Below are positions 24,908-55,892 of a stretch of DNA of 64,000 nucleotides, piece by piece. Each line of letters begins with the position of its first letter. The first letter of the stretch is position 1. The stretch comes from a virus. The stretch is from positions 34,342 through 98,341 of IMG/VR virus record IMGVR_UViG_3300028840_001302; one strand, written 5' to 3'. The notes under the pieces were generated by a model. It had not been told where the DNA came from and made no database searches. It saw nothing but the letters and a program-made list of their open reading frames with translations. Both the position numbers and the translations under genes were made by a program.

Positions 24908-25996
24908 CTACTTTTTCTTTTTCTTCTTTTTCTTCGAGTCCTTTTTCTTGGTCGATTTCTTTTTCTTATCGGATTTCTTCTTTGAAGACTTCTTCGACTT
25001 TTTGGACTTCTTCTTCTTTTCCTTTTTCTCTTCCGCTCTGCGCTCACGGGCCTTTTCTTTCCTCCGTTCCCGTTGCGCTTCCTTCGTTTCAACATCCCTC
25101 TCGATGCCTTTGTCAATCAGTTTCTTGACTTTCTTTTCGAGCATCGTGATTGCTTTTATCGAGTCCTTTGCTTTGTACTTCAGCAAGTCTTGATAAGCAC
25201 TCACCTTTGTACGCAGTTTATTGAACTCATCGAGTTTTTTCTGCATTGCGGAAGTATGGTAACGGTTCTCCGCGACCTTCGCCAGTTCTTCATGGAACCG
25301 GACGATTTCGGCCTCCATCTGTTCCGCGAAACTTTTCTTGACTTCGACCCGTGCCTGTTTCGTGTCGGCAACCGGGAGAGTATAAAAGTGACTGTTGTTT
25401 CCGAGACGGTCCAGAAATACTTTGAGTCTCGCAATCTCTCCGATGAAAGTATTCGGAACGAAGTAAATGCCGCCGTGGTCCCGGACGCTATGTGCCTGAC
25501 ATTTTTCGTTCAGGTAATCAATCACGATGCGCCGGATATCCGTATGGTTATGGTACTCGCGGTTTTCCTTGTAAAGCTTTTTGAAAACATCCGTGAGGAA
25601 AACGCCGCGAATATCGAGACTTCCGGTTTGCTTATCGAGAAGTATGGTAGTCTCGTGCGCGTAATTGATTTTGTCGTTATCCTTCTCGGAATCGTCACGA
25701 GCGACCAGAGCGACCTTCGCGGTGTCGGCATCATCTTCAAACAGGTCTGCGAATCCTTCCCCTGCGGTTGCGCGTTCAAACTGACGGGTTGCGCGTCTGA
25801 AAGCTTGCCACGGCTGTACGGGTTTGATTTCATAACCGGACGGGAGACCCGATGCCGCAAATGCTTTCTGAAAAGCCGTGTGTAGAACCCTACCCGAAAG
25901 ATTGTACCAGACGAGATAGCCGACTAGCGGGGCGTTACTCGCCTTGAGTTCTTTCGCGTATTCCTTTACCGTGAATCGTTTCGGTTTCGTTTTCAT
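24908..25996 (-). CDS. Protein with long poly-lysine tail, partner candidate of the MoxR ATPase
   Basis: 362 residues, ATG with AAAGGAGCAATACATT upstream. Residues 1-250 are a folded domain ('PLVGYLVWYNLSGRVLHTAFQKAFAASGLP', 'RRIVIDYLNEKCQAHSVRDHGGIYFVP', 'ARLKVFLDRLG'); residues about 205-305 include a coiled coil; the last 60 are nearly pure Lys/Ser/Arg/Asp. It may belong to the uncharacterised DUF6744-like proteins that occur near AAA+ ATPases in phages, but I cannot verify this. It follows the MoxR gene by 32 bp, so the two are cotranscribed and probably act together. Confidence 0.6.
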   Translation of the reverse strand: MKTKPKRFTVKEYAKELKASNAPLVGYLVWYNLSGRVLHTAFQKAFAASGLPSGYEIKPVQPWQAFRRATRQFERATAGEGFADLFEDDADTAKVALVARDDSEKDNDKINYAHETTILLDKQTGSLDIRGVFLTDVFKKLYKENREYHNHTDIRRIVIDYLNEKCQAHSVRDHGGIYFVPNTFIGEIARLKVFLDRLGNNSHFYTLPVADTKQARVEVKKSFAEQMEAEIVRFHEELAKVAENRYHTSAMQKKLDEFNKLRTKVSAYQDLLKYKAKDSIKAITMLEKKVKKLIDKGIERDVETKEAQRERRKEKARERRAEEKKEKKKKSKKSKKSSKKKSDKKKKSTKKKDSKKKKKKKK

Positions 25997-26028: not shown

Positions 26029-27198
26029 TTATCCGAGTTTCTCACGGACGATTTCTTCGCGGTAGCCCTGTACGACCTTCAGAGCTTTCTTCGCCCTACC
26101 GTGAATACGTTTCTTACGGGGATGGTCGATTATATCCTCAAGTTCCTGTTCCCCCTGTTTCAGTTTTTCAACCGCCTGAAAAACGGTTTCCATTGAGGAA
26201 GAACTTGCCATTGCATCGTGGTGAAGGCTTTTGGAGTTTTCGATGATAGTATCAACCTTCATAGCATCCGGATTGCTCATCTTTTTGATGATAACCGAAA
26301 TTTTATCACGCTCCTCAATCGTGTGCCAGAAGCAATGTTCGAGAACCATGAGGTCGTCTTCGTTGACTTCAGTACGACCATTCAAAAGCGCGTGTGCCTT
26401 CAGGATGTTCGGTCTCATGTCACCATTGCGGTCCCGGTTCGCACAGGTCCGGTAAAGAACACGGTCACTGAGCCAAATGCCTTCCTCCCGAAGTTTGTCC
26501 TGAATTTTCAGGATGGTCTTTATAATATCGTCCGGAACTTCAACCTCTTTGCAGGACGCGACCAACGTATCAAGTTCCTTGAGAGTTATCGAAGCTTTAC
26601 GAGTCGAAGCGGTGTTACCGGAGAGAAGTTCAATCCGGTTTACTCTTTCGTTGATGCTCACGACTTCGAGCTTCACAACGTAACGGTCAAAGAGTGCCTC
26701 CATCTCTTCGCCTTCAAAAAATTCGTTTGAGGCACTTACCAGAGAGCGAAGCGGAACGTCTTGCGGTGTCCTGCCGTTATGAAATTTCTTTTCGTTGATA
26801 AGAGTGAGCAACGTGTTCAGGATACTCGAAGAAGCTTTCCCCGGTTCATCGAGAAACGCGAAGGTTGCTTCCGGAAGTTTGTCTTCAGTATTGCGAGAGA
26901 AGTTTTGTTCGTTCATGTATTTGTCAAGGTCAACCGGACCGAAGAGTTCTTCCGGCACAGTTGTTTTTGACATGAGCCACTCGAAGTAGGACGCGCCTTT
27001 AATGCGTCCGAAGTATTCCCGGCACATCATTGATTTGGCAGTTCCGGGTTTGCCGATAAAGAAGACGTTTTCGCCGGAGAGAAGAGCGCAAGTAAACGTA
27101 TCAACGTGGTCCTCACGTTCAAGCAATGCCGACTTCATTTCCGCTACAACCGACTGTAGCTTTTTCAATTCTTTCGTGTGTCCGTTTTTCTTTGCCAT
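26029..27198 (-). CDS. MoxR/RavA-like AAA+ ATPase
   Basis: 389 residues, ATG with AAGGAGGGCTACC upstream. Walker A GKPGTAKS (49-56), Walker B FAFLDE (113-118), sensor-1 Asn in 'LVSASNEF' (about 158), an arginine-rich sensor-2 region and the helical lid typical of MoxR proteins. C-terminal coiled coil from about 330. MoxR ATPases work as chaperones or remodellers together with VWA proteins (RavA/ViaA, CobS/CobT, NorQ/NorD). A ViaA-like VWA gene lies 3.3 kb upstream under the same type of promoter. Substrate unknown. Confidence 0.85.
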   Translation of the reverse strand: MAKKNGHTKELKKLQSVVAEMKSALLEREDHVDTFTCALLSGENVFFIGKPGTAKSMMCREYFGRIKGASYFEWLMSKTTVPEELFGPVDLDKYMNEQNFSRNTEDKLPEATFAFLDEPGKASSSILNTLLTLINEKKFHNGRTPQDVPLRSLVSASNEFFEGEEMEALFDRYVVKLEVVSINERVNRIELLSGNTASTRKASITLKELDTLVASCKEVEVPDDIIKTILKIQDKLREEGIWLSDRVLYRTCANRDRNGDMRPNILKAHALLNGRTEVNEDDLMVLEHCFWHTIEERDKISVIIKKMSNPDAMKVDTIIENSKSLHHDAMASSSSMETVFQAVEKLKQGEQELEDIIDHPRKKRIHGRAKKALKVVQGYREEIVREKLG

Positions 27199-27257
27199 AA
27201 TTGGTAGCCCTCCTTTTATGGTTTACTGAAAAGTAGTATCTCCACTAAAACTACCGT

Positions 27258-27286
27258 ATTATACCAAAATTCTATCTATTTGTCAA
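27258..27286 (-). promoter_or_regulatory. Promoter of the MoxR operon
   Basis: On the - strand TTGACA (27286-27281), 17-nt spacer ending ATTTTGG, TATAAT (27263-27258). The TGG before the -10 makes it an extended -10 promoter. The same ATTTTGGTATAAT core occurs at 31968, 54258 and 55130. Confidence 0.85.
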
Positions 27287-27309
27287 CACCTTTTTTTATT
27301 TTCTTCAAA

Positions 27310-27492
27310 CTAATTTTTTGTGCATGAATCGCACAATTCAAGCACTTTTGCGATACCCTCATTGATACCGATTTGTTTACTCATCTGTTGCTTCACGGTA
27401 TCAACCGCATCGGTCAAACTGTGTACCCATACGGCGAGAATACAAATGGCAATTATCAGGACCACGATAGTTATAATACATACGGTCAGCAT
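27310..27492 (-). CDS. Small membrane protein
   Basis: 60 residues from ATG 27492, which has GGGAGGTAAA directly upstream; the longer frame to 27558 lies in the neighbouring gene. Residues about 2-25 are a strong transmembrane helix ('LTVCIITIVVLIIAICILAVWV'), followed by an amphipathic helix and an ending with a C-x2-C pair. N-out or N-in topology cannot be fixed. Function unknown. Confidence 0.65.
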   Translation of the reverse strand: MLTVCIITIVVLIIAICILAVWVHSLTDAVDTVKQQMSKQIGINEGIAKVLELCDSCTKN

Positions 27493-27493
27493 T

Positions 27494-27808
27494 TTACCTC
27501 CCGATGATACCGCGAATATTTTCCGCGATAATCTGAGCCTCTTTTTTCCGGAGACCACGGATACCCATTGAGTTACCGCCGCGAGTTTCGATTACAACGG
27601 TGTCCCAAATCAAACCTCTGTTATGCGAGACCGAAGCTATCTCCGCTTTCGGAACGAAGTCGTGGATACGTTTCCACGGAAAATAAAATGCTTCGATTTC
27701 GTTCAGATGCACTCCGTCTTCTTCGAGTCTGAAAGACGGAGGGAAAATAAAATTGGTGATGCTCCCATGAAAGAGAGAACACCAGCGAGATATTTTAACT
27801 CTGTTCAT
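27494..27808 (-). CDS. Possible PH-like domain protein
   Basis: 104 residues. From about residue 24 'PSFRLEEDGVHLNEIEAFYFPWKRI' and then 'WDTVVIETRGGNSMGIRGLRKKEAQIIAENIRGII' read as a beta-barrel of about six strands closed by a C-terminal helix, the layout of bacterial PH (YdbT/bPH) domains. It overlaps the upstream gene by 14 bp and the next membrane protein follows after one base, so the pair may act at the membrane. Fold assignment is by pattern only. Confidence 0.45.
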   Translation of the reverse strand: MNRVKISRWCSLFHGSITNFIFPPSFRLEEDGVHLNEIEAFYFPWKRIHDFVPKAEIASVSHNRGLIWDTVVIETRGGNSMGIRGLRKKEAQIIAENIRGIIGR

Positions 27809-28340
27809 CTTCCTTCACCTCTTTCGCTTTTTCTAAAAGTTTACGAGCCATATCAACCGGAGACACTCCGGATTTTTTTAATTCTTTATATAGCTTCTCG
27901 AATAATTTTTCCGAATCTTTTTCGCGCATCTCCTCTTCAAAAGGTGTCTCGGTTCTTTGTAAAAATCCCGCCGCTGAAAGAATGCAAACAACGTCCGACA
28001 TCTCCGGATACTTCCAACCGTGTTCACGGGGGAAGTTTGCAAGACCCTCACCGAGAGCTTTGAAAAGTTTCGTAACCGCTCCCTTACCGATGCCCTTGAA
28101 AGCGTCACGGTGGAAACGTACTTCGCAATCAAAGTAAGTCATACCTCCGGTGTTGAAGTGTTCATGTTCCTTCCAGATTATTGAGAAATCACAGTCCGGA
28201 AGATGAACGTATATCCGATGTTTTTTTTGCTCCAAAATAAAATAACGGTAACGCTTGTTGTAACACACTTCGCAATATTCCGCATCGGAGTCTATTGCGA
28301 TTTTACAGTCTTTACAGTAGGATTCATTTGGCGGTCTCAT
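27795..28340 (-). CDS. Zinc-ribbon hypothetical protein
   Basis: 181 residues. N-terminal zinc ribbon C9/C12/C23/C26 ('YCKDCKIAID...EYCEVCYNKR') followed by an alpha/beta domain ('RYFILEQKKHRIYVHLPDCDFSIIWKEH') and a helical, charged C-terminus. No catalytic motif. Lies in the small-gene block upstream of the PH-like and membrane proteins. Function unknown. Confidence 0.6.
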   Translation of the reverse strand: MRPPNESYCKDCKIAIDSDAEYCEVCYNKRYRYFILEQKKHRIYVHLPDCDFSIIWKEHEHFNTGGMTYFDCEVRFHRDAFKGIGKGAVTKLFKALGEGLANFPREHGWKYPEMSDVVCILSAAGFLQRTETPFEEEMREKDSEKLFEKLYKELKKSGVSPVDMARKLLEKAKEVKEDEQS

Positions 28341-28348
28341 AGTAACTC

Positions 28349-28789
28349 CTACTCGTTCACCAGCAGACGATTAATAATTTTGTTCAACCGTTTGAGAGTG
28401 TGAAGGTCCATAGCGTAACCTTCCCCGTCTTCCTCCTGTTCGCGCATACATTTCAGGAGGTACTTATCGTCTTCGGTCAGAGCGAGTTTATCAATGACTC
28501 CGGTTGCGAGCGCGAGAAGTGTTGACAGATTAATCGGACACTCATCGTTATGGTCCTCATCCATCACGACAACCGTAAGCTCCTGATTGTTCTTATGGTA
28601 GTTACTGCCAAAAGCGTTATCGAGTTTGAGACCAGTAACGAGAGCGGTCACGCCGGAGTTATCCGGTTCATGCCATTGCTCATTGATGTCGAACTTCTCC
28701 ATAAATTTAATCAGACGGTTATGGTCTTTGAGAAACATTTTCCGGGTACTCTCCCGGCGTTCATCGAAGGTTATTGTTTTTCTCGGCAC
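28349..28789 (-). CDS. Hypothetical protein
   Basis: 146 residues; ATG overlaps the stop of the upstream gene (TGA/ATG overlap at 28789). Basic N-terminus, then an acidic, mixed alpha/beta body ('ELTVVVMDEDHNDECPINLSTLLALATGVIDKLAL'). No motif recognised. Close coupling supports that it is real. Confidence 0.55.
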   Translation of the reverse strand: MPRKTITFDERRESTRKMFLKDHNRLIKFMEKFDINEQWHEPDNSGVTALVTGLKLDNAFGSNYHKNNQELTVVVMDEDHNDECPINLSTLLALATGVIDKLALTEDDKYLLKCMREQEEDGEGYAMDLHTLKRLNKIINRLLVNE

Positions 28790-29502
28790 TATTCACCTCC
28801 CGCGATTTCGAGAGCCTCTTCCAGTTTTGCGATAGCCGCCTTACGCATCTTACGAATCTTCCCCGGATTGATAATGTTCGCCGTGGTATCGGTTTCCTGT
28901 AATGCCGTAATCGCCGCTTCCATAGCTTTCTTCGCCTTACCGTTGAGATTGATTTCCGGTGCGGGTTTCGGTTTCACAGGTTCGTAATAACTTTTCGCGG
29001 ATTTCTTCTTATCCGATTTTTTCTTCGTTCCCTTTTTCTTCGACTTCTTTTTGCCCTTTGTCTTTTCAGACTTTTTCGATTTTTTTGATTTTCCATTCAT
29101 TGCCTTTACTTCCTCTCTTTCCTTCACGAGTCGCATTGCGGTTGCGAGTACCCGCTTCTTTTCAGCCGGGGTCGATTCCTCAAAGACCTGTTTCTCTGTT
29201 GCTTCCTTTTTATGGCGATATCTTTTCGGAAGTGGACCGGACTGAAAAATCGGTTTAAGTTTTCCGGCCTTGATTAACTTACGAGCCTCATCAGAACGGT
29301 TGCCTCCCTTTTTCGTTTCGGCAGCATAGAACCAGAGCGCAACGAGAGACATACGATAGTCCCGGTACTCAGGACTCTCAGCCTTCACGCGCTTAATATG
29401 GACGGGACGTTGCTTGCCAGCGTGGATAGCGAGATAGATTCCCTTTACCCGCTTCTTTTTGGGAGACTTCTTCTTTGAGGATTTCTTTTTCCTCTTTGAC
29501 AT
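28789..29502 (-). CDS. Lysine-rich hypothetical protein
   Basis: 237 residues, ATG with GGAGGGCTACC upstream, the same extended site used by the MoxR and ViaA-like genes. The N-terminal 20 residues and the region about 137-170 are Lys/Ser-rich; a conserved-looking basic domain lies between ('YLAIHAGKQRPVHIKRVKAESPEYRDYRMSLVALWFYAA'). The C-terminal 45 residues form two helices. Might bind DNA or RNA through its basic tracts. No family recognised. Confidence 0.6.
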   Translation of the reverse strand: MSKRKKKSSKKKSPKKKRVKGIYLAIHAGKQRPVHIKRVKAESPEYRDYRMSLVALWFYAAETKKGGNRSDEARKLIKAGKLKPIFQSGPLPKRYRHKKEATEKQVFEESTPAEKKRVLATAMRLVKEREEVKAMNGKSKKSKKSEKTKGKKKSKKKGTKKKSDKKKSAKSYYEPVKPKPAPEINLNGKAKKAMEAAITALQETDTTANIINPGKIRKMRKAAIAKLEEALEIAGGE

Positions 29503-29526
29503 TTGGTAGCCCTCCGTCTCGAAATT

Positions 29527-29691
29527 TTAAGGACGGTGAACGATACGCTCCTTACGTCCACGGTCAGCCTTATATCGAGTATTACAGTTCGTGCAGATGC
29601 GATACCCGCCGACACCTTTTTTATTATAGATGCTCTTGCAAGACGGGCAAACGTACTTAGTAATTTTGACGTGTCCTTTTTTCACTCGCAC
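29527..29691 (-). CDS. Small zinc-ribbon protein
   Basis: 54 residues beginning MRVKKGHVKITKYVCPSC and ending KERIVHRP. Four ligands C15/C18 and C33/C36 form a compact zinc ribbon. GAAGGAG lies upstream; the first GTG (29691) is very close to it and the second GTG (29685) has better spacing. It is basic overall, as nucleic-acid-binding ribbons are. Too short for the usual length cut-off. A 30-bp palindrome lies 15 bp upstream (29707-29736). Confidence 0.6.
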   Translation of the reverse strand: MRVKKGHVKITKYVCPSCKSIYNKKGVGGYRICTNCNTRYKADRGRKERIVHRP

Positions 29692-29706
29692 ATCTCCTTC
29701 AGGGTT

Positions 29707-29736
29707 GATTCGTGTAGTATATATACTACGCGAATC
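29707..29736. repeat. 30-bp near-perfect palindrome (operator or mRNA hairpin)
   Basis: The 15-base left arm GATTCGTGTAGTATA is matched by its reverse complement with one G/T difference. It lies between the genes at 29785 and 29691. It has no T-run on either strand, so it is not a classical terminator; an operator or a hairpin shaping the ribosome site of the zinc-ribbon gene is more likely. Confidence 0.6.
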
Positions 29737-29784
29737 AAGGGTTTAAACGGGAACAGGGGAGACCCGTGGGCCTCCCCCGGTCCA

Positions 29785-30069
29785 CTAGAGGGGGTATTCT
29801 TCCGAGAGATATTCGTTCACTTCAACCGCTTTCTCTGCGGCATCCTGTGGGTCGTCCATGTAACATTTGATGGTCCATGTGACCGCACCGTTTTTGTCCC
29901 GCTTCATCTCCACGGAACTTTGCGACCTGACAACAAGCGCATCCGGATTTCCGAAATCGCCGCCATCAGCGAGACCCTTCTTTACTCCCTTCGAGAGTTT
30001 TTTCTTTTTGGTCTTCTTTGACTTTTTTTCGGTCTTTTCTTTTTTTGTCTTCTTTGCTTTCTTTGGCAT
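29785..30069 (-). CDS. Small protein with lysine-rich N-terminal tail
   Basis: 94 residues, ATG with GAGGAGGTAAAC upstream. Residues 2-32 are mostly lysine; residues 35-94 form a compact beta/alpha domain ('DALVVRSQSSVEMKRDKNGAVTWTIKCYMDD'). The 65-residue core has no motif I recognise. It is the first gene behind a consensus promoter (30117-30145). Function unknown. Confidence 0.6.
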   Translation of the reverse strand: MPKKAKKTKKEKTEKKSKKTKKKKLSKGVKKGLADGGDFGNPDALVVRSQSSVEMKRDKNGAVTWTIKCYMDDPQDAAEKAVEVNEYLSEEYPL

Positions 30070-30116
30070 GTTCGGTTTACCTCCTCTTTTTGGTTATAGT
30101 TAAGTTTAGCGTTAGT

Positions 30117-30145
30117 ATTATACTCACTGATACACTAAATGTCAA
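30117..30145 (-). promoter_or_regulatory. Promoter upstream of the lysine-tail gene at 30069
   Basis: On the - strand TTGACA (30145-30140), 17-nt spacer, TATAAT (30122-30117): a perfect sigma70 consensus. It lacks the ATTTTGG spacer end found in the other phage promoters. Confidence 0.85.
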
Positions 30146-30162
30146 CGTCTAAAATAATTTTT

Positions 30163-30546
30163 TCATTCAATATACTTTATCTCAAAATCCTTAATACTCA
30201 TACGAGCGAATCTAAAGTAATCCATATCTTTGAAACAGGCAAGCAAAACTTCCTGCAAGACGTTATCTTGGTCCAGAACCTTGACGATGAAACCGTCACC
30301 GAAAATTCTTCCTGCCATTGCGACCCGTTCCTCCATCGAGTCATTTTGATTTTCCAGTTCGAGAATATATTTCACGTCCCGGTGATGGTATGTAGGTGCG
30401 GCAATCAAGATTCGGTCAACCTCCTCTTTCACCGCACCTTTAATTATATTGGGTCCGGGTTCGCGCCAGAGTCCTAGTCGCTGTATCATCGTCTTCGTGA
30501 AACCAGAAGGACAAACTATTTCTTTGTATTCTGAGTTGTTACCCAC
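30163..30546 (-). CDS. Hypothetical protein coupled to the VWA gene
   Basis: 127 residues from a GTG 7 nt after a GGAGG site that lies within the end of the VWA gene, so translation is probably coupled (31-bp overlap). Residues 1-50 are mixed; from about 60 the protein is helical and charged. No motif recognised. Because it shares the VWA transcript it may be part of the same system. Confidence 0.55.
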   Translation of the reverse strand: MGNNSEYKEIVCPSGFTKTMIQRLGLWREPGPNIIKGAVKEEVDRILIAAPTYHHRDVKYILELENQNDSMEERVAMAGRIFGDGFIVKVLDQDNVLQEVLLACFKDMDYFRFARMSIKDFEIKYIE

Positions 30547-31922
30547 TGAAGAACCTCCGCATCATTATTGGTCCGGGTATTCACACGAGCTTGTTTATCG
30601 CAAATCATATCGAGCGAATTTGAATTATACCCTCCGACCTGTACTCCGAGAACAGTAAAACCATTTTTTTCTTGCTTACGTTTAAATTCTTCGAGCCAAG
30701 TGTTATCAACGGGTGCATCCCCGTCAGTAATTATAATGATGTCGCAATCCTCTTCGGTCTCGCAGATTTCCGCAGCTTTGTCGAGAGGCTTTTGGAAATC
30801 CGTTCCACCTCCCATGAATGCCCGGAAAAAATTCATCAGTTTGTCAAGCGTCATTTTGCTGTCGAACTTATATTCCTTACCAACCGAAGAATCGAAAGGA
30901 ATCCAAATAACCTCACGCTTCTCTTTTTTACAAATTCTCCAAGTTGCCATCACCAGAGCTTTCGCCCATTGGTCCGGAGTTCCGGACATCGAACCAGATT
31001 GGTCTTCGAGAATAATGAACGGTCCTTTTTTCTTTTTCTCTTCCGCTCTCATTTCATATTGCAGTAATCCGCGTTCAAGATATCCGCGATAAAATTCTTT
31101 TTTCAGTCCGGGATGTTTTGCCTTCACGAGTTCCGAAGGAAGAAGTCGAGTCAAGTCATTGCCCTGTTCGACTCCGATGATTTCGTCACGGCCATGAGTA
31201 TATGATGAACGCTTGTTCGCATCCATCGTCAGGAACATCCGTCCAGCGAGTTCGAGAATTCTTTTCAGGATGTAATCGTTCTTAAGTTTTTCCGCTATGC
31301 GTTCCCTGTCACCTTCCGGAACTTCGCTCCACTCCGACATCCCGGTTCCGTAACCGAGAGCTTGCGCCAACATCTTAACTTCCTGCGCTTTTTCTTCGGC
31401 CTCATCGAGAGCGTCTTGAATCGCAAACGCGATTTGCGCTTCCGTCTCAAGTTCATCACGACCCTCTTTGTAATCTTCGAGTTCCTCTCCGGTTTCATCC
31501 GCGAGTTGTTTCATCATGTCGGAGAAATTATTTCCACCTCCTACTTCATCATCAAACTGCGGAACGGAATCGAGATGGTCGAAATTATTTTTCTGGTTTT
31601 GCGGTTGAGGTTTTTCGCTGACCGGAATTTCACCGTTCATAATTTTTTCGTTGATAGCCATTGTTGCGAAGGTAGAGTTAAGTGAATCCTTCACGGAAAA
31701 TTTTCTCATGCGTTTGAAAGAATCGTGACCGTGAATTCTCTCCGCGATTTTGCTCTTCGCTTCCGGAGGTGTGCAGTTGTAAAAGGAATCGAAAATGTTT
31801 TCTGAGAGTTCTTCAAATCCCGGTTCAATATCCGGAAGAGATTGACTCCCCTGTTGGACTTGCTCCCGAAGTTTATTTCTCCGGGACATCACATCTCGAA
31901 ATTTGCTCTTCGTTTCTAGCAT
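30516..31922 (-). CDS. ViaA-like VWA domain protein
   Basis: 468 residues. ATG 31922 (site AAGGAGGGCTACC) is used; the longer frame would start inside the promoter. The N-terminal half is helical. 'AGRMFLTMDANKRSSYTHGRDEIIG...DLTRLLPSEL' followed by 'GPFIILEDQSGSMSG' (MIDAS DxSGS, about 307-314), 'WAKALVMATWRICKKEKREVIWIPF', a GGGTDF threonine loop and 'DIIIITDGDA' match the ViaA/CoxE-type VWA family closely. In E. coli ViaA partners RavA, a MoxR ATPase; here the MoxR protein at 26029 is the natural partner. The metal-binding residues are intact. Confidence 0.8.
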   Translation of the reverse strand: MLETKSKFRDVMSRRNKLREQVQQGSQSLPDIEPGFEELSENIFDSFYNCTPPEAKSKIAERIHGHDSFKRMRKFSVKDSLNSTFATMAINEKIMNGEIPVSEKPQPQNQKNNFDHLDSVPQFDDEVGGGNNFSDMMKQLADETGEELEDYKEGRDELETEAQIAFAIQDALDEAEEKAQEVKMLAQALGYGTGMSEWSEVPEGDRERIAEKLKNDYILKRILELAGRMFLTMDANKRSSYTHGRDEIIGVEQGNDLTRLLPSELVKAKHPGLKKEFYRGYLERGLLQYEMRAEEKKKKGPFIILEDQSGSMSGTPDQWAKALVMATWRICKKEKREVIWIPFDSSVGKEYKFDSKMTLDKLMNFFRAFMGGGTDFQKPLDKAAEICETEEDCDIIIITDGDAPVDNTWLEEFKRKQEKNGFTVLGVQVGGYNSNSLDMICDKQARVNTRTNNDAEVLQWVTTQNTKK

Positions 31923-31967
31923 TAAGGTAGCCCTCCTTTTTTTGCTAAAGTGGTTCATTTGATACAT

Positions 31968-31996
31968 ATTATACCAAAATATACTTTAGAATTCAA
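31968..31996 (-). promoter_or_regulatory. Promoter of the ViaA-like gene
   Basis: On the - strand TTGAAT (31996-31991), 17-nt spacer ending ATTTTGG, TATAAT (31973-31968). Shares the ATTTTGGTATAAT core with the MoxR promoter. Confidence 0.8.
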
Positions 31997-44433: not shown

Positions 44434-44518
44434 GTCCAAAACTCCTTTCGTTGAAAAGAAAATAGGTGTTATGTTTTTTTAGAGGGAAGCTGAAGTGCTT
44501 ACCTCCATGTCCGTCTTG

Positions 44519-44589
44519 CTACCCTGCTAGGACTCGAACCTAGAATGGAAGGTCCAAAACCTTCTGTGTTACCATTACACCACAGGGTA
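44519..44589 (-). tRNA. tRNA-Gln (anticodon TTG)
   Basis: Cloverleaf on the - strand: acceptor TACCCTG/CAGGGTA, anticodon stem GAAGG/CCTTC around loop TTTTGGA (anticodon TTG at positions 34-36), T-arm CTAGG-TTCGAGT-CCTAG, discriminator G73 as expected for glutamine. CCA is not encoded. It follows the tmRNA by 4 bp, so the two are probably processed from one precursor. Short D-arm but standard. Confidence 0.9.
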
Positions 44590-44593
44590 ATTG

Positions 44594-44947
44594 TGGAGGT
44601 GCGGGGAATCGAACCCCGGTCCTAGCTTAACTTCCGTCCCAACGGTCTTACAGCTTTATCCCGTGATTGCCTGTGGCTTAAGCTCATCGGGCAAGCTCCG
44701 TCCCGTCTTTCCGGAATGCCAACACATTTTAAACGGGTGTGCGCCGTTCCCGTGATTTCCGGGAGCCATCCGATATTTGCCCGGAGGTCCATCTATCGGA
44801 GTCAATAGGTCCGGGTGCGGCTACGCCGCAAGTTTTACAGGCTGTTTGGCATGTAAAGGGTTATAGTCGGATTTTTAAACGGAGCCATCCGACCAACTCC
44901 GTGCTGAGTTGAAAGTTCCGTTACCTAGTCGAAACCAGTTCACCCCC
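44594..44947 (-). ncRNA. ssrA: Transfer-messenger RNA (tmRNA)
   Basis: One-piece tmRNA, about 354 nt on the - strand. The 5' end GGGGGTGAACTGGTTTCGAC and the 3' end with T-arm (CCGGGGTTCGATTCCCCGCACCTCC) form the tRNA-like domain: acceptor GGGGGTG/CACCTCC with a G3-U70 wobble, the alanyl-tRNA synthetase determinant, and discriminator A; CCA is not encoded. The tag reading frame (44821-44850) reads AKQPVKLAA then TAG, with the stop in the loop of a GCGGC/GCCGC hairpin as is usual for helix 5. GC-rich pseudoknot arms follow. Role: rescue of stalled ribosomes and tagging of proteins with a C-terminal degradation signal. Confidence 0.95.
44821..44850 (-). other. tmRNA tag-peptide reading frame
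   Basis: Resume codon GCC (44850-44848), codons for AKQPVKLAA, stop TAG (44823-44821). With the alanine added from the tRNA-like end the full tag is A-AKQPVKLAA. The ending LAA is the form recognised by ClpXP-type proteases. The resume point is inferred from the LAA-stop and the preceding ACAT context. Confidence 0.85.
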
Positions 44948-44969
44948 AAATTTTGAAAGAGCTTAGTAG

Positions 44970-45043
44970 TAGCAGGGGAGGGATTTGAACCCCCGATGTC
45001 TTGCTTATGAGGCAAGTGAGTTACCAGACTACTCTACCCTGCG
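44970..45043 (-). tRNA. tRNA with anticodon CAT (Met, or Ile if lysidine-modified)
   Basis: - strand cloverleaf: acceptor CGCAGGG against CCCTGCT, anticodon stem CTTGC/GCAAG around loop CTCATAA (CAT), T-arm GGGGG-TTCAAAT-CCCTC with one G-U, discriminator A. The first pair C1-U72 is a mismatch. The anticodon stem lacks the three G-C pairs of initiator tRNA, so an elongator-type tRNA-Met or a tRNA-Ile2 is likely. CCA is not encoded. Confidence 0.85.
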
Positions 45044-51525: not shown

Positions 51526-51770
51526 CTCTTGAAGTCCAGAAAAGATATCAAGAGATTTTACTTTCAGGAACGTGGGAGCAATTGCGTATCGCCATCGTGG
51601 AGGTACGACCTGATTTTGCGACTCTACCTGATACGACTTTTCAAATAATGTTTCATCAGGGTCGGGCAGCAAGACCGGGAATCCCGGATAAGTTAAAAGA
51701 CGAATCAACCAAATGGTTGCTTGACAGGAAAATACCTGTTACGCAAAATCTTGAGGGAGGTAAAAAATGA
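51462..51770 (+). CDS. Hypothetical protein overlapping the sigma-like gene
   Basis: 102 residues. ATG 51462 with GGGGGAGAGG upstream lies 64 bp inside the sigma-like gene in another frame, an unusually long overlap. Helical and charged N-terminus, then 'LRIAIVEVRPDFATLPDTTF'. No motif. Its stop overlaps the next gene start (ATGA). Good sites make it credible. Confidence 0.6.
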   Translation: MGKIHRPRDEEESKRHSEEVLTLEVQKRYQEILLSGTWEQLRIAIVEVRPDFATLPDTTFQIMFHQGRAARPGIPDKLKDESTKWLLDRKIPVTQNLEGGKK

Positions 51771-52474
51771 TGATGTGTCCCGTCTGTAAAAGTATGACGG
51801 TATATCGAAAACAGGTAATCCTTGTCGGTGAGTCCGGAACTCCCTTCGAGTGTAATGATTGCGGGTTCTCTTTCTACCTCACAAACGGAAAGATGAAACC
51901 TATCTTCGAGAAGGGTAAAGCATACAAGTGTCCTTTCTGCCAACAGGGAGTCCCGATGCAAGTCAACCTTCCCTTGATGGTTCCCCGTCTCGGACTCGAA
52001 TGCACGATATGTAAGAAGACTCTTTGTATATGGGAGGGAGAGAATAGTGAACTCCCGTTTGCGAAGTATCTTAATGTCGCTGATTGGGTCGAAGGTTTTG
52101 AGGCATACGAAGACCCGTTCCGTGAGTCGGTCCGGGATATCCTTTGTACCGTGTTCTTCGATTCGATGCCCGTTCTCTTAGGTCAGGCAGTTGAGCTTAT
52201 GGCTAAACGTCTGGAAGAAACGAAGATGGTCAGCCGTAGAGTTATCAATCGCATTGCGCGTGAACGTGCGAAGACACGCGAAGAAACACAGAAAAAGACA
52301 CGCGAGAAAAAGGAAGCGAAACCAAAAAAGAAATCGAAAAAGAAACCGGATAAGAAAGCGAAAAAGGGAACGAAGAAAAAGGGTAAGCGGAAGGCCAATA
52401 AAAAAGAGGCAACCAAAAAGGTTGCCTCCCCGGACAAAGAGGTATTGGCTGGTGAAGAAACCAGCGAAAGCTAA
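51767..52474 (+). CDS. Double zinc-ribbon protein with lysine-rich tail
   Basis: 235 residues, three ATG codons after GAGGGAGGTAAAA. First ribbon C4/C7/C29/C32, second C55/C58/C79/C82, both with C-x2-C knuckles typical of transcription-factor-like Zn ribbons. A helical domain follows (95-155), then a 70-residue Lys-rich tail. A role in transcription or DNA binding is plausible given the sigma-like and HTH neighbours, but unproven. Confidence 0.6.
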   Translation: MMMCPVCKSMTVYRKQVILVGESGTPFECNDCGFSFYLTNGKMKPIFEKGKAYKCPFCQQGVPMQVNLPLMVPRLGLECTICKKTLCIWEGENSELPFAKYLNVADWVEGFEAYEDPFRESVRDILCTVFFDSMPVLLGQAVELMAKRLEETKMVSRRVINRIARERAKTREETQKKTREKKEAKPKKKSKKKPDKKAKKGTKKKGKRKANKKEATKKVASPDKEVLAGEETSES

Positions 52475-54234: not shown

Positions 54235-54263
54235 TTGACACCGGGGTTATATTTTGGTATAAT
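54235..54263 (+). promoter_or_regulatory. Promoter of the right-arm accessory region
   Basis: TTGACA (54235-54240), 17-nt spacer ending ATTTTGG, TATAAT (54258-54263). Perfect boxes and the phage ATTTTGGTATAAT core. Confidence 0.9.
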
Positions 54264-55106: not shown

Positions 55107-55135
55107 TTGACATATATATAGGATTTTGGTATAAT
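55107..55135 (+). promoter_or_regulatory. Promoter of the gene at 55221
   Basis: TTGACA (55107-55112), 17-nt spacer ending ATTTTGG, TATAAT (55130-55135). Same core as the other phage promoters. Confidence 0.9.
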
Positions 55136-55220: not shown

Positions 55221-55892
55221 ATGCCGAAAACTGAAACGAGACTTAACTTTCACAGTGTTCAAAATCAAGAGATTGCCGGACGGTTTGTAGCAAACCATGT
55301 TATCATGCTAGGCACGTCAATTATTACGGATTTGCTTGAATGCGGAAAATTGGATTATTGCGATTTTGAGCATACGCAGTATTATTATGAAACTTTATCG
55401 GACGGGGATTTTGAAGGTAATGAAAGTGAACGGGACGAAAAAGTTGAAGACCTTGAAACCCGTATAACTGAAATCCATGAAAGTATTGAAACCGCAACCG
55501 ATGAACGGGACGATTTGGAACTTGACTTGACGTATGACGATTTCGATGAAAACCCGGAACTTAAGGAAACCAAACAAAAGCGGATTGCTGAGTTAAATTC
55601 GGAAATTGAGAAACTTGAAAAAGAACTCGAAAACGCGGATAATGATAAAGACCTTTTGGAACTTGCCGAACCTAATGAAAACGATGTTTTTGAATATTGG
55701 TTTGTGTCTGATTACCTTTACCGCCAGCTTAAGGACCGTGGGGAAACTGTACTTGACTCGGCATACGGTTATGTTTGGGGACGTGGTACTACAGGGCAAG
55801 CGATTAAAATTGACGGTGTTATCACTTCCATTATATCAAGCGGGGAAAATTTCGCAGGGCAAAAATACGGTCCCGAAATCGAAAACGATTAA
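55221..55892 (+). CDS. Phage/plasmid accessory protein of unknown function
   Basis: 223 residues, ATG with CGGGAGGTAGA upstream. A central acidic coiled coil (about 75-145), then 'VFEYWFVSDYLYRQLKDRGETVLDSAYGYVWGRGTTGQAIKIDGVITSI'. The 'E.W.VS.WL...L...GE.V......WGR.TTGQAI..D.VI' ending is a signature of a widespread uncharacterised family of plasmid and phage genes. No enzymatic residues are evident. A GC hairpin (55903-55924) follows the stop. Confidence 0.7.
   Translation: MPKTETRLNFHSVQNQEIAGRFVANHVIMLGTSIITDLLECGKLDYCDFEHTQYYYETLSDGDFEGNESERDEKVEDLETRITEIHESIETATDERDDLELDLTYDDFDENPELKETKQKRIAELNSEIEKLEKELENADNDKDLLELAEPNENDVFEYWFVSDYLYRQLKDRGETVLDSAYGYVWGRGTTGQAIKIDGVITSIISSGENFAGQKYGPEIEND

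Follow-up and report, generated by a model that had tools for sequence, protein, structure and literature searches.

We analysed a 64,000-nucleotide stretch (hereafter the window) of the IMG/VR virus record IMGVR_UViG_3300028840_001302, corresponding to bases 34342-98341 of this 98,341-base viral record. Three genes on its minus strand are the subject of this study, encoding a MoxR-family ATPase, a VWA protein and a member of the protein family DUF6744. A sequence-only reading of positions 26029-31922 had proposed that the first two form a RavA/ViaA-like pair with a lysine-tailed partner; the gene for this partner, the DUF6744 protein, falls just outside that interval. The three genes are listed below (MIDAS, metal ion-dependent adhesion site).

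26029-27198, minus strand: MoxR-family AAA+ ATPase (bpMoxR, PF20030; core RavA-like, no LARA domain), 389 amino acids, Pfam E value 3.7e-49.
30516-31922, minus strand: VWA protein (ViaA/CoxE-like; N-terminal half helical, MIDAS intact in the C-terminal VWA domain), 468 amino acids, PHROG 24053 at 2.4e-55.
24908-25996, minus strand: DUF6744 protein, the proposed third component, 362 amino acids, 32 bp downstream of MoxR, PF20529 at 1.2e-30.

The ATPase belongs to the MoxR family, scoring 167 bits against PF20030 (Pfam cut-off 27). Its Walker A (GKPGTAKS) and Walker B (LDE) motifs are intact. Residue conservation was assessed in 19-sequence alignments, each of the window protein and its relatives; in that of MoxR, G49, G52, K55, D117 and E118 are invariant, and N158 and D171-R172, at the sensor/arginine-finger positions, are kept in the 18 relatives. 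The nearest NCBIfam model is RavA (6.3e-54; 183.8 bits against an equivalog cut-off of 681). The match ends at about position 329 of the 498 in that model, indicating that the protein is without the LARA part, and no LARA domain was matched in Pfam at an E value of 0.1. The VWA gene lies 3.3 kb upstream of MoxR, also on the minus strand. Its product scores just below the cut-offs of the Pfam VWA models; an AlphaFold model places a VWA domain at residues 297-465 (Z of about 17 to VWA domains) that is canonical and close to those of Rpn10, TFIIH p44 and ArnB. The MIDAS residues D307-S309-S311...T374...D400 are conserved, so that the protein has both the fold and the metal site of a VWA/MIDAS cochaperone. 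Its nearest NCBIfam model is ViaA (6.5e-27; 94.9 bits against an equivalog cut-off of 500). Thus, an intact ATPase and an intact ViaA-like VWA protein are present as had been proposed, and RavA and ViaA are indeed the nearest curated models, but scores so far below the equivalog cut-offs make the two proteins relatives of RavA and ViaA rather than RavA and ViaA themselves.

The DUF6744 protein scores 107 bits against PF20529 (Pfam gathering cut-off 27) and is therefore a member of that family. IMG/VR searches with each of the three window proteins as a lone query gave no matches because the relatives are too diverged, and a two-row DUF6744 alignment likewise found none in IMG/VR; alignments of relatives were required. 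A survey starting from MoxR retrieved 26 viral contigs, 20 of which also encode VWA; six more distant MoxR loci without a clear VWA partner (L026-L031) were excluded from the counts. DUF6744 is encoded in 17 of these 20 contigs, in 16 of them within 10 kb and on the same strand; in the seventeenth (L011/G006) its distance to MoxR is about 10 kb. A second survey started from DUF6744 and covered 34 loci of phages, plasmids and chromosomes whose flanks were usable. MoxR and VWA were found within 10 kb in 27 of the 34, comprising six of eight new viral contigs, four of four GTDB contigs with flank, six of ten loci from phylum-wide scans and 11 of 12 plasmids, on which all three genes are clustered. 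The twelfth plasmid carries all three on the same replicon. The plasmid hosts sampled were Brevibacillus, Alicyclobacillus, Streptomyces, Nocardia, Rubrobacter, Pseudanabaena and Subdoligranulum.

Individual carriers are far apart. Moorella phage MTATph1 encodes DUF6744, MoxR and VWA inside 4.2 kb. The haloarchaeal tailed virus HVTV-1, first reached through the DUF6744 fold, encodes a DUF6744 protein (gp25, Pfam 3e-19) 15 kb from an AAA_5 ATPase (gp59, without a match to PF20030) and a VWA protein (gp57). The trio occurs in four gene orders, and the association is kept throughout. Among about 50 loci, every other gene family recurs in 7 at most, and few cellular genomes encode DUF6744 (5 of 396 sampled from Actinomycetota and 14 of 398 sampled from Bacillota). 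The three proteins have correlated pairwise distances (Mantel r 0.61-0.76, against permutation maxima of 0.25 or less). The sequence-only reading had named a lack of co-occurrence in related phages as what would speak against it; instead, co-occurrence is strong. Because the association holds in both search directions, there is strong reason to regard DUF6744 as a conserved third partner of the MoxR-VWA pair, either a component or a dedicated client. In the literature we found no mention of DUF6744 and no description of a MoxR-VWA-DUF6744 trio.

The protein directly after MoxR was described correctly from sequence as having 362 residues, of which about 60 form a lysine-rich C terminus. It divides into two parts.

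25094-25996, minus strand: DUF6744 core, composed of an alpha/beta part and, C-terminally, a coiled coil of three helices, AlphaFold mean predicted local distance difference test score (pLDDT) 87.6.
24911-25093, minus strand: lysine-rich tail of about 60 residues, not conserved in the family.

A PDB fold search with the model gave no whole-fold match. Partial resemblances to the RnlA repeat domain, KA1 and CENP-N (Z up to about 8) and to the CorA/ZntB coiled coils (Z of about 9-11) do not go beyond what common arrangements give, and we draw no function from them. Most homologues stop after the coiled coil. One (L006) has a similar AKKAP-rich tail, one (L014) has a SAP domain where the window protein has its tail (1.5e-9, above the cut-off), and one (L018) ends in a weak MarR-like stretch; the remaining ends are neutral or acidic. 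Within the window, 14 of 66 genes encode at least 50% lysine plus arginine in a 30-residue span, including those at 24908, 28789, 29785, 45238, 51767 and 52660, with the DUF6744 tail as the extreme case. An apparent DUF6744 match at 51767-52474 is due to such a lysine tract and disappears once the tract is masked. We therefore rejected the tail, mostly missing from homologues, as a defining DNA-binding feature. The DNA-binding idea drawn from it survives in weak form, given that lysine tracts are common here, with the SAP domain and the DNA-metabolism neighbours described below in its favour; the tail hints at contact with nucleic acid but is too weak to bear an argument. Four homologues (L012:8747-9799, L010:4173-5186, L015:8782-9804 and L021:8601-9659) share a C-terminal extension (LRAM..QL.TLWDALG...LVEA), which appears to be an undescribed small domain.

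The genes surrounding the trio are largely those of DNA metabolism. In the window they encode a DNA polymerase, an SbcCD-like nuclease, an exonuclease, a UvsX-like recombinase, a single-stranded DNA-binding (SSB)-like protein and helicases, and the tail genes lie on the strand opposite to the trio. The Moorella phage trio neighbours UvsX, a Holliday junction resolvase and ribonucleotide reductase (RNR). The trio or the pair is found among replication, repair and nucleotide genes in CL131, HVTV-1 and the Alicyclobacillus and Brevibacillus plasmids, and DnaB/primase and helicases are neighbours at other loci. The sliding clamp gene dnaN lies beside or near the pair or the trio at L002 (phage CL131), L003 (gut phage), L048, L055 and L069 (Alicyclobacillus) and L047 (Brevibacillus); it is directly adjacent in CL131, the gut phage and Alicyclobacillus. 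The trio-bearing Nocardia and Pseudanabaena plasmids encode a type IV secretion system (T4SS), a relaxase and Par proteins. Terminase, portal, capsid and tail annotations are all missing from their gene tables, which are incomplete and contain many hypotheticals.

The joint occurrence of the three genes in many phages and large plasmids that are not related to one another makes it probable that they form one machine. We propose, with a probability of about 0.5, that MoxR, VWA and DUF6744 form a three-component AAA+ remodelling machine of large phages and plasmids, most likely for the DNA transactions of the element itself. In CbbQO, the MoxR hexamer is the motor and the VWA protein an adaptor that grips the client by its MIDAS (PMC4660213), and NorQD works likewise as MoxR motor and VWA adaptor (PMC13036017). 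The trio's pair has the same predicted working mode as these rubisco and nitric oxide reductase systems, which is likely here because the MoxR and VWA motifs are intact; unlike CbbQO and NorQD, no rubisco or nitric oxide reductase was found in the trio neighbourhoods inspected. By analogy with CbbQO, NorQD and RavA/ViaA, the MoxR hexamer would be the ATP-driven motor, and the VWA protein would dock on it and hold the client through its metal site. DUF6744 may be an element-specific adaptor, a scaffold or a dedicated client, sometimes bearing a DNA-binding-type extension. To judge from the neighbourhoods and the plasmid distribution, the machine would remodel protein complexes that replicate, repair or maintain the DNA of the element itself, and not the virion; we hold this choice of target with moderate confidence. 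We further speculate that its substrates could be replication complexes of mobile elements, such as the sliding clamp or some other replication protein bound to DNA, and that DUF6744 could be the adaptor on the DNA side in tailed phages, haloarchaeal viruses and large plasmids alike, but so specific a version is doubtful.

Compared with E. coli RavA-ViaA, the window pair is alike in its motor and MIDAS-bearing VWA partner and different in its DUF6744 partner, its carriage by phages and plasmids and its ATPase without LARA. The MoxR-VWA pair has been noted before, in 2007 as the 'MoxR-type chaperonin' orf66/orf63 of Bacillus phage 0305phi8-36 (PMC2147016), where the DUF6744 partner was not noticed, and also in haloviruses (PMC7911831). 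What is new here is the third component and the distribution of the machine across phages and plasmids. DUF6744, a family without a described function, thereby gains a firm context, and scattered reports of phage MoxR-VWA proteins as virion chaperone, cobaltochelatase or metal chaperonin are unified as one testable three-part machine. The earlier interpretation is partly supported: the pair is RavA/ViaA-like, and DNA binding through the lysine tail is a weak idea.

Several observations weigh against the proposed DNA-directed machine. The dnaN link occurs in only about four independent lineages, and early and middle phage genes often lie near replication genes, whatever their function. The co-divergence of the trio may stem from shared descent of the replicons. 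Seven of the 34 loci of the DUF6744-first survey have no MoxR/VWA inside 10 kb, and same-clade MoxR-VWA pairs occur without DUF6744 (L002, L003, L004, L020, L023 and L024). DUF6744 has no whole-fold relative in the PDB and its core is not basic, so that DNA contact is no more than a possibility, and the tail is absent from most of the family.

Other explanations deserve consideration. Virus-encoded MoxR-VWA pairs are also known from Acidianus two-tailed virus (ATV; p618/p892) and jumbo phages, where they were assigned to tail or virion assembly: ATV p618 is a component of the virion that binds p892 as well as virion proteins (PMC4124505), and a role in virion assembly was proposed for the jumbo-phage pair by Iyer et al. 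(PMC7824862). The ATV proteins, distant relatives, are among our tblastn matches. The trio might thus be a chaperone that matures tail or head proteins, but its position among replication and repair genes, with the window's tail genes on the other strand, and its presence on conjugative plasmids without annotated virion genes argue against a purely virion-assembly role, and we consider this reading unlikely. The plasmids instead shift the focus from virion assembly to DNA maintenance or to conflict between elements. The latter is the somewhat stronger competitor, although still on the unlikely side: DUF6744 would be the sensor or effector of a MoxR-vWA ternary system directed against host defences or rival elements. 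Such systems likewise consist of MoxR, VWA and a third conserved but variable protein (VMAP, iSTAND or beta-propeller; PMC7159879), the window ATPase matches PF20030, a family named for such a system, and carriage by phages and plasmids suits inter-element conflict. However, the VWA domain fills residues 297-465 of 468, leaving the protein without a C-terminal effector domain in Pfam or the AlphaFold model; a PADLOC scan gave no match except a chance Cas9 hit. DUF6744, the third protein here, has no enzyme signature and, unlike exchanged effectors, is kept across phages, plasmids and an archaeal virus. Among the immediate window genes scanned, Pfam gave no VMAP, iSTAND or beta-propeller match; distant versions of these may lie elsewhere in the genome.

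Metal insertion, by a CobS/CobT cobaltochelatase or by a metal inserter for RNR, appears improbable. Cobaltochelatase (CobS-CobT, with CobN) also combines AAA+ and VWA subunits, the haloarchaeal virus pair has been annotated CobS/CobT and tied to class II RNR by Liu et al. (PMC8651126), and NorQD inserts iron (PMC13036017); RNR adjoins DUF6744 in the Moorella phage and lies near it in HVTV-1. Yet only 9 of 40 trio-related records contain RNR, and none of the 40 contains CobN (PF02514), which argues against cobaltochelatase, although a host may still encode it. The window proteins have no CobS/CobT match and are closest to RavA/ViaA in NCBIfam, and the CobS match of HVTV-1 is weak. Equally hard to favour is the view that DUF6744 is just a frequent neighbour of a self-sufficient MoxR-VWA pair, its tail an artefact of lysine-rich phage proteins. 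The abundance of lysine tracts in the window and the same-clade pairs without DUF6744 are in keeping with it, but the two-way association persists across very distant replicons despite changing gene order.

The MoxR and VWA genes are preceded by similar expression signals.

27258-27286, minus strand: sigma-70-type promoter of MoxR-DUF6744, TTGACA-17-TATAAT with the shared ATTTTGGTATAAT.
31968-31996, minus strand: sigma-70-type promoter of VWA, TTGAAT-17-TATAAT with the shared ATTTTGGTATAAT.
27203-27213, minus strand: extended ribosome site GGAGGGCTACC of MoxR.
31926-31936, minus strand: extended ribosome site GGAGGGCTACC of VWA.

Exactly four copies of ATTTTGGTATAAT occur in the window (at 27258 and 31968 on the minus strand and at 54251 and 55123 on the plus strand), against 0.005 expected. 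In every copy, TATAAT is preceded at a spacing of 17 bp by a hexamer reading TTGACA or TTGAAT, and we therefore take all four to be sigma-70-type promoters. GGAGGGCTACC occurs exactly three times, at MoxR, VWA and the gene at 28789-29502. The two genes do share promoter and ribosome site, as had been noticed, but not exclusively, as other genes use both. MoxR and DUF6744 are only 32 bp apart and are thus probably on one transcript.

Behind VWA, the sequence-only reading had placed a coupled protein of unknown function.

30163-30546, minus strand: small open reading frame (ORF) overlapping the VWA stop, GTG start, orphan.

The overlap stands, but no relatives were found in Pfam or PHROGs and no similar neighbour recurs among the relatives' loci, and its membership in the MoxR-VWA system is doubtful.

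The remaining ATTTTGGTATAAT copies (54251-54263 and 55123-55135, both plus strand) may mark a co-regulated gene set; the second precedes the gene at 55221, a member of a family of unknown function. Outside the window, the same viral record carries a gene for the RNR large subunit (G000:14375-15943). The window also encodes a phage transfer-messenger RNA at 44518-45043 on the minus strand (tag AKQPVKLAA; Rfam RF00023, 84 bits); its flanking genes are those for tRNA-Gln and tRNA-Met.

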